28,199 nt of DNA, taken from positions 1 through 28,199 of IMG/VR virus record IMGVR_UViG_3300008517_000189. One strand, 5' to 3'. The stretch is from a virus. The notes under the pieces are model-generated. The model saw only the letters and a list, made by a program, of their open reading frames with translations, did no database searches and was not told where the DNA came from. Made by a program: the position numbers and the translations under genes. Positions 2,691 to 3,767 of the stretch are shown here, one piece after another. Positions within the stretch are counted from its first letter, which is position 1; each line of letters begins with the position of its first letter.

Positions 2691-2723
2691 GATTTATTCC
2701 TCCTGTTTATTAGTTTCGCTGTC

Positions 2724-2751
2724 ATTGTATAACATTATTATACTTTGTCAA
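2724..2751 (-). promoter_or_regulatory. Leftward early promoter
   Basis: On the minus strand a perfect TTGACA (2751-2746) is followed after 16 bases by TACAAT (2729-2724). This is a near-consensus sigma70-type promoter pointing into the four minus-strand microprotein genes. Confidence 0.75.
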
Positions 2752-2787
2752 GTGTTTTATTAGAATATTTTTATATTATATTAGATG

Positions 2788-2833
2788 TATATTACAAAAA
2801 GAGTTGACATGAGTGTTTTCGTTTGGTAATATA
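2788..2833. promoter_or_regulatory. Inverted repeat overlapping the rightward promoter, possible operator
   Basis: TATATTAC (2788-2795) and its exact complement GTAATATA (2826-2833) bracket the -35 and cover the -10 of the rightward promoter. The octamer AGTGTTTT also appears twice (2751-2758, 2812-2819), each next to a -35. These are AT-rich words and may occur by chance. They are listed because a winged-helix regulator is encoded about 600 bases downstream. Confidence 0.35.
2804..2832 (+). promoter_or_regulatory. Rightward early promoter
   Basis: TTGACA (2804-2809), a 17-base spacer, and TAATAT (2827-2832). The expected start is near 2839, so the transcript would carry the tRNA-like element, then the hairpin at 2986-3050, then the genes from 3072 on. 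It is back-to-back with the leftward promoter; the two -35 boxes are 52 bases apart. Confidence 0.75.
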
Positions 2834-2886
2834 TGGTTGTTATTCGAAAGGCCGGTTATCGTATAGAATCGAGCCAATGATTAACT

Positions 2887-2968
2887 CAAGTAGGGAGATC
2901 AGTAGGCTCAGTTGGTAGAGTGGATGCTAAAGCATCGGTCGGCGGTTCGAGTCCGTCCTACTCGCCCA
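2887..2968 (+). tRNA. tRNA-like element with an aberrant anticodon arm (probable pseudo-tRNA or tRNA mimic)
   Basis: Seen: a canonical T arm (GGCGG-TTCGAGT-CCGTC, 2941-2957), a 3' acceptor strand CTACTCG, then C and an encoded CCA (2966-2968). There is also a canonical D arm (GCTC-AGTTGGTA-GAGT, 2906-2921). The anticodon stem GATGC/GCATC (2923-2936) is perfect but closes a loop of only four bases, TAAA, instead of seven, so no anticodon can be assigned. The 5' acceptor strand is ambiguous because AGTAGG occurs at 2889 and 2901. Using the first copy gives 6 of 7 pairs but inserts about 10 bases before the D arm; using the second removes the two-base linker. It is unlikely to decode. It could be a decayed tRNA, a structural mimic, or an att-derived fragment. 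Confidence 0.5.
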
Positions 2969-2985
2969 GTGAACTTGATAAATCT

Positions 2986-3050
2986 AAGGGGGCGTTTTGG
3001 CGATAAATTCCTGCGGAAAGCATTACCGGAATTATACTAGTTGCCCCCTT
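2986..3050 (+). promoter_or_regulatory. Nested long-stem hairpin in the early leader
   Basis: AAGGGGGC (2986-2993) pairs perfectly with GCCCCCTT (3043-3050) across 49 bases. Inside, AATTCC pairs with GGAATT around a 16-base loop. There is no U-run of terminator quality after it, only TTTGGGTTT. The GGAGG ribosome site of the 3072 gene follows within 15 bases, so this looks like a 5' leader structure or processing site. Confidence 0.6.
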
Positions 3051-3071
3051 TGGGTTTAAATTGGAGGAAAT

Positions 3072-3233
3072 ATGTTAGAAAAAACAATTAAAGTAGGAGA
3101 GATGGTCAATGTTTATATTGCCACGGAAGATTGTTTTGTTTTAGAAAGATCAGATGGGGAAATTGTTAACATTCAAAACTATTCTAAAATGATAAAACTC
3201 AGAGAAGGAAAGAAAAATGAACATCCCGAATGA
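3072..3233 (+). CDS. 53-aa early protein, unknown
   Basis: ATG at 3072 with GGAGG 7 bases upstream; the frame runs 53 codons to TGA. The first 35 residues look like a small beta barrel (KVGEMVNVYIATEDCFVLER), similar in pattern to short SH3-like or KOW-like folds, followed by a basic tail. No family can be assigned. The last 17 bases overlap the next gene. It is the first gene of the rightward early transcript. Confidence 0.55.
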   Translation: MLEKTIKVGEMVNVYIATEDCFVLERSDGEIVNIQNYSKMIKLREGKKNEHPE

Positions 3234-3327
3234 AGAAACACGAAAAGCAATATTAGAGACAAGAGCTGGAATAGGTCTTATCGAATGTAAAGACTTTGAT
3301 GACATGTGTAAGAAGTTAGGTATATAA
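3217..3327 (+). CDS. 36-aa microprotein with an EF-Ts/UBA-like pattern
   Basis: ATG at 3217 behind AAGGAAAG, ending in TAA at 3325-3327. The protein has the pattern R-x3-L-x3-R-x-G-x-G-L-x-E-C-K, which recalls the N-terminal UBA-like domain of elongation factor Ts (LRERTGAGMMDCKKAL) and, more loosely, ribosomal L7/L12. The resemblance is short and could be chance. A translation-related or ubiquitin-associated-fold microprotein is an inference only. It overlaps the 3072 gene by 17 bases. Confidence 0.5.
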   Translation: MNIPNEETRKAILETRAGIGLIECKDFDDMCKKLGI

Positions 3328-3331
3328 GTTT

Positions 3332-3393
3332 GAGGTCGCTGTTTATTAGAAAGGACATTCAACCATAAGCAATCCCTAATAAATGGTGGCCTC
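3332..3393 (+). promoter_or_regulatory. Two-part long-stem hairpin before the regulator gene
   Basis: The outer stem GAGGTCGC (3332-3339) pairs with GTGGCCTC (3386-3393) with two G-U pairs. The inner stem TTTATTAG (3342-3349) pairs perfectly with CTAATAAA (3376-3383). Together they give about 16 pairs with a 2x2 internal loop and a 26-base terminal loop. CTTTTC and then the TAGGAG ribosome site of the 3420 gene follow. It could be an attenuator or weak terminator between the microproteins and the regulator. Confidence 0.65.
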
Positions 3394-3419
3394 TTTTCAA
3401 AAATAGGAGAACATAATAA

Positions 3420-3767
3420 ATGAAAAAGTTACATGACACACAATGTAAATTATTGGATTTATTAGTAGCAAACGTTGCAGATCCTTTAACTATTCGTGAA
3501 CTACAAAAAGAATTAGGGTTGTCTTCTACTAGTGTGGTTTTTCATCATCTCCAAGCTTTAGAAAATAAAGGGTTTTTGGTGAGAAACCCACAAAATCCTA
3601 AAGAGTATATAATTATTACTAATGACGGACTACAACAGAGTTATGCATCACTTCTTGTTGATATTAAGGAATTGCGTAGACAAAATGAGGTTTTTCGAAA
3701 AATGATTGAAGAATTTATACAGCCACGTTTTATTGGATGGGAAAAAGTAAAAGGAGACAAAAAATGA
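3420..3767 (+). CDS. LexA-type winged-helix transcriptional regulator without peptidase domain
   Basis: 115 aa. Residues 5-67 match the LexA N-terminal DNA-binding pattern: Q-x2-LLD-x-L, then LTIRELQKELGLSSTSVVFHHLQALENKG with the recognition helix at about 35-50, then a wing ending in EYIII. There is no S24 or LexA peptidase domain. Instead a charged helix (70-100) probably dimerises it. Known: LexA, MarR-like and phage regulators use this fold. Inference: it controls the divergent promoters upstream, but it has no self-cleavage module, so classic SOS induction is not expected. AGGAG lies 11 bases upstream. It ends in an ATGA overlap with the next gene. Confidence 0.75.
   Translation: MKKLHDTQCKLLDLLVANVADPLTIRELQKELGLSSTSVVFHHLQALENKGFLVRNPQNPKEYIIITNDGLQQSYASLLVDIKELRRQNEVFRKMIEEFIQPRFIGWEKVKGDKK

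Follow-up and report, generated by a model that had tools for sequence, protein, structure and literature searches.

A tRNA-like element with a four-base anticodon loop in an uncultured P22-like podovirus, and short-loop tRNA-like elements in other phages

Results and Discussion

The early operon and the tRNA-like element

The window, as we call the whole stretch of DNA analysed here, is a record of 28,199 bases and a fragment of an uncultured P22-like podovirus, its terL and portal being of the P22 type. A sigma-70 type promoter (TTGACA-17-TAATAT; 2804-2832, plus strand), extended by a TG before the -10 and scoring 10/12 in a consensus scan, ends 54 nt upstream of a tRNA-like element that occupies positions 2887 to 2968 of the same strand; the initial annotation, which placed a near-consensus promoter about 50 bases upstream, was right on this point. 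Beyond the element the minimum-energy fold contains a long G+C-rich hairpin (2979-3058, plus strand) that forms a structured leader, with the ribosome site and the first frame at its end. The hairpin carries no T-rich terminator tail, and no terminator was called after the tRNA-like element. The first frame encodes 53 amino acids (3072-3233, plus strand) and has no family match; it is followed by a 36-amino-acid frame (3217-3327, plus strand) and by a gene of the LexA-type winged-helix kind.

The 36-amino-acid frame, possibly a phage mini-antitoxin, resembles the C-terminal tail of the DinJ/RelB antitoxins, both by phmmer (DinJ 4q2u, E 0.006; 4ml0, E 0.0097) and in Pfam (RelB, E 0.12). From end to end it aligns with the final 34 residues of DinJ and lacks the DNA-binding half, and the match is short and weak. 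A reading of the frame as the N-terminus of EF-Ts, and hence of EF-Tu as the target, was rejected in favour of the DinJ tail on the strength of the PDB search; none of the other loci examined contains a match to the frame.

The tRNA-like element itself was dissected by reading the sequence and checking its pairing by script. The acceptor strands CAAGTAG (2887-2893) and CTACTCG (2958-2964) form 6 of 7 pairs with one mismatch (A2888-C2963), and the 3' strand continues into a C discriminator (2965) and an encoded CCA (2966-2968). In the D arm (2906-2921), GCTC (2906-2909) and GAGT (2918-2921) form 4/4 pairs, one of them G-U, around the loop AGTTGGTA. The anticodon arm (2923-2936) measures 14 nt: GATGC (2923-2927) and GCATC (2932-2936) form 5/5 pairs, with pair probabilities of 0.89-0.98, on a loop that reads TAAA (2928-2931). 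After a variable region GGTC (2937-2940) follows the T arm (2941-2957), whose strands GGCGG (2941-2945) and CCGTC (2953-2957) form 5/5 pairs, again with one G-U, around the loop TTCGAGT; both this loop and the D loop match the tRNA consensus. All these parts lie on the plus strand, and the arms, the CCA and the perfect five-pair anticodon stem described in the initial annotation are all there.

Two features depart from a canonical tRNA. Where seven loop nucleotides with U33 and a triplet are expected there are four, and where a 7-bp acceptor is normally joined to the D arm by a 2-nt linker with U8, the six-pair acceptor is here followed by a linker of 12 nt in which U8 is absent. The 10 surplus nucleotides, already remarked upon earlier, go with a direct repeat of AGTAGG (2889-2894 and 2901-2906, plus strand), the second copy of which can substitute for the first in pairing, so that two registers are available. 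The element thus has a tRNA fold with intact D, T and anticodon stems and a loop too short to read a codon: it is a non-decoding (pseudo) tRNA by fold, and among phage tRNA-likes it belongs with those whose anticodon loop is shortened to 4-6 nt.

Detection and folding

The Rfam tRNA model (RF00005) scores positions 2887-2968 at 28.6 bits (E 0.0009 in the 721 bases searched), just under its gathering score of 29 bits, and ARAGORN calls no tRNA here. The match exceeds chance although it is sub-gathering. It is also the sole Rfam match within 2700-3420 up to E 1, which bears on the idea of a split or permuted tmRNA of which the element would be the tRNA-like part. Such a domain would be expected to lack an anticodon, and in the phage Tunturi_3 a permuted tmRNA match adjoins short-loop tRNA-likes; in the window element, however, the D stem is full and the anticodon arm both short and closed, and we hold the tmRNA reading to be disfavoured and very improbable.

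The Tunturi_3 match is an observation in its own right. This isolated acidobacterial phage (Tunturiibacter phage Tunturi_3, PP885686; our locus L218) carries at 2655-2879 of the locus a match to the Rfam permuted tmRNA RF04321 of 63.3 bits, which the record does not annotate; next to it, at about 3000 and 3228, lie two tRNA-likes whose anticodon loops are odd. In the coordinates of PP885686, a short-loop element of this phage is found at about 87995-88050.

The folding energy of the window element is unremarkable (z -0.77). Its preferred fold is not the textbook cloverleaf (-18.5 kcal/mol) but a stalk of -27.4 kcal/mol, 9 kcal/mol better, built from the second AGTAGG copy, GGG/CCC and UCAAGU/ACUUGA; both folds retain the D, anticodon and T arms. 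Since the GGG/CCC pairing hides the CCA, a free CCA-ended state of the RNA is only possible.

An extended stalk without a free CCA is also what one might expect if the element served the processing or stability of an early mRNA from within its 5' leader. RNase P or the enzymes of 3' processing would then cut at the tRNA shape, or the shape would protect the transcript as a cap, with the mature mRNA running from the hairpin at 2979-3058. The position of the element fits this, since it follows the promoter and precedes the long structured leader before the ribosome site and first frame, and so does the missing terminator. Elsewhere, however, several members of a putative Firmicutes-phage family end in apparent terminators, and the element of the related locus L007 overlaps the end of a gene, so that short-loop elements have no fixed leader position; we consider this explanation unlikely.

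More weight must be given to simple decay, in which a former tRNA has lost three loop bases and duplicated 10-12 nt at its 5' end while its other stems have not yet worn away. The acceptor mismatch, the duplicated AGTAGG and the weak Rfam score agree with it, against which stand the intact T, D and anticodon stems. These defects, together with the missing U8 and the disfavoured cloverleaf, also weigh against the functional reading discussed below. For the window copy we regard decay as a strong rival, possible though short of probable.

Relatives of the virus

The closest terL relatives in IMG/VR are about 60% identical to the terL of the window, and a relative in a Legionella maceachernii isolate is 53% identical. 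The phage collection yielded no relative of the window at the DNA level, and a search for homologues of the tRNA-like element or the early operon found none.

Many of the terL relatives bear ordinary tRNAs upstream of terL, as phages often do, which is a further point in favour of decay. Several others have tRNA-likes whose acceptor and T stems are sound but whose anticodon arms are abnormal. In two distant relatives, whose terL is 54-56% identical, the tRNA-like upstream of that gene has a loop of 4 nt; these are L007 (loop GAAA; L008 is identical) and L041 with L058 (loop TATA; about 99% identical over the element region and counted once). The best folds of L007 and L041 are cloverleaves, and the anticodon stem of L041 is extended to 10 bp, which is beyond what simple deletion gives; the recurrence of four-base loops in this lineage in so elaborated a form argues against decay. 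Apart from the tRNA consensus that all three share, L007, L041 and the window element have no sequence relationship, and we infer that the loop was shortened on more than one occasion. The terL lineage is not enriched for non-canonical arms (9/45, against 41/179 of the other tRNA-bearing loci, p 0.84, the comparison loci having been picked for odd tRNAs).

Two further terL relatives, L019 (near 4212) and L012 (minus strand, near 963), have tRNA-likes of about 100 nt with a common unusual D-arm, GCGY GGNYGGTGAC RCGY, and with inserted arms that differ.

Short-loop tRNA-likes in phages and bacteria

IMG/VR was searched with the pattern GGTAGAG-N24-25-GTTCGANTC, which partly fixes the D and T loops; the counts that follow apply to the matches listed in both spacing searches. 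In many of these the acceptor is 7/7 and the T stem 5/5, and the 4-nt loop sits on a stem of 5 bp. At 25-nt spacing, a perfect 5-bp stem with a 4-nt loop was found in 12 of the 37 non-redundant intact elements listed, against 0.9 in controls (maximum 4 of 200), and at 26-nt spacing a 5-nt loop with a perfect stem in 22 of 54, against 1.5. In the controls the 3' strands were dealt among the sequences and stems scored at the canonical register. An exact count of four loop bases, which had been thought special, was rejected as a signature, 5-nt loops being at least as common. So was a -10 box directly before the acceptor as a mark of the odd elements, since normal tRNAs have one too.

Among 299 proteobacterial genomes the N24-26 pattern gave 2 matches, while normal tRNA spacing was found in all of 40 genomes, the viral and bacterial scans not being normalised to each other. 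Short-loop tRNA-likes are thus common in phages and rare in our bacterial sample. Their near absence from bacterial chromosomes speaks against decay, although phage genomes turn over their tRNAs faster. One of the two bacterial matches lies inside a small array (L365, 1485-1699), probably a mobile element. Of its three tRNA-like genes, one is called tRNA-??? and another has a loop of 5 nt.

Standard annotation partly conceals these elements. Of the 46 listed short-loop phage elements, ARAGORN labels 14 as tRNA-???, and on many of the 46 loci it opens the stem and assigns an amino-acid name, so that some supposedly ordinary tRNAs in phage annotations may be non-decoding RNAs. As 26 of the 46 clean elements listed are the sole tRNA in their locus, they are not merely dying members of tRNA arrays. 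Searches of open-access literature turned up no account of phage tRNA-likes in which the anticodon loop is shortened, but in general both pseudo-tRNAs and undetermined tRNAs are already known. The recurrent short-loop set in phages is the general finding, and it is more interesting than the window copy itself.

A comparison of the other short-loop loci with named phages was informative only for Tunturi_3 and for L100, with its tRNA-Asn-like matches. Four loci (L140, L185, L114 and L208) carry tRNA-likes with sound acceptor, D and T arms and 30-80 nt in place of the anticodon arm, which may be introns or inserted hairpins.

Maintained or decaying

A putative Firmicutes-phage family (L101, L145, L139, L152, L190, L209 and others), its host group read from gene content and gut sources, offers a view of how such elements evolve. 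Its shortened stem covaries while the loop drifts: CCAC/GTGG, CCGC/GCGG and CCTC/GAGG occur, and pair 3 is A-T, G-C or T-A with pairing kept, a covariation that rests on few sequences. From reading the sequences, a conserved TATTATGGA box, resembling a promoter -10, precedes the element, and in several members a terminator-like repeat follows it. Four members have anticodon arms of 17 nt, so that loop length can vary within one family. The initial annotation had proposed looking for covarying stems with a persisting short loop, and had named relatives with a normal loop as an argument against its mimic; this one family provides the former and, with its 17-nt arms, part of the latter, the window having no orthologue among the loci found.

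The short-loop set as a whole bears marks of wear that favour decay. The acceptor is full in only 28 of 57 elements listed (normal tRNAs, 11/15), and a CCA is encoded in 9 of 57 (normal tRNAs, 11/15); yet the T stem is 5/5 in 52 of 57. Relaxed selection would also give more stem defects and a scarce CCA, and some elements are clearly remodelled ordinary tRNAs, L100 resembling a phage tRNA-Asn. The elbow appears to be kept in these elements and the amino-acid end not, and the covariation of one family speaks against decay. Recurrence, near absence from the bacterial genomes sampled and covariation favour mimics as a class, and the window element is probably more than a single broken tRNA. The choice first offered, decayed tRNA or conserved mimic, thus leans to the mimic for the class, while the acceptor defects of the window copy keep decay in contention there. 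The genomic contexts of short-loop elements differ between lineages, and one shared function is only possible.

Possible function

Codon supply and the replacement of cleaved host tRNAs are the usual explanations for tRNA genes in phages, and both need an anticodon; a recurrent set unable to decode would need another explanation. Acceptors compared by eye reveal no single synthetase identity, which speaks against one charged product. For the window element the chances seem to us evenly balanced that it is a phage-encoded, non-decoding tRNA-like RNA kept for its shape, as one of the recurrent short-loop set. It would be made early in infection, either alone or at the head of the early operon's transcript, and a host factor indifferent to the anticodon would recognise its tRNA shape, chiefly the D/T elbow. 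The role we favour would be that of a tRNA-shaped ligand or decoy in host counter-defence, and the possible DinJ-tail mini-antitoxin next to it in the operon could fit such a function.

We tentatively extend this to a wider proposal: unrelated phages may maintain small, often solitary non-decoding tRNA-like RNAs in which selection acts on the D/T elbow rather than on decoding or the CCA. Early in infection these would bind some host factor that recognises tRNA, be it a nuclease or toxin of a defence system or an enzyme of modification or processing. Short-loop tRNA-likes could then serve to find new tRNA-sensing defences.

Comparison with known systems

The tRNA-like domains of tmRNAs likewise combine a tRNA elbow and acceptor and lack an anticodon; what sets the window element apart from them is its D stem, its closed anticodon arm and the absence of a tag part. 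The terms tRNA-??? and tRNA-OTHER are labels and not a described class, and many other short-loop elements receive amino-acid names that a loop of 4-5 nt does not support. Phage-encoded tRNAs are known to evade anticodon nucleases (van den Berg 2023, PMC10264068) and retron-Eco7 and PrrC (PMC11555353), and against retron-Eco7 this counter-defence requires an intact anticodon (PMC11555353). The phage tRNAs that evade such defences (anticodon nucleases, retron-Eco7, PARIS) keep a decoding loop, whereas the window element, having no anticodon, cannot decode or stand in for a cleaved host tRNA; short-loop elements would therefore require a different mode of action. Another parallel is tRNA-Other of Bacillus cereus, a pseudo-tRNA with a Trp anticodon that is inactive in translation and forms part of a longer transcript; its gene is chromosomal, next to a genomic island, and its phenotype has been tested (PMC3399842). 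The window element resembles it in being tRNA-like and non-decoding, and differs from it in having no anticodon and in residing in a phage.
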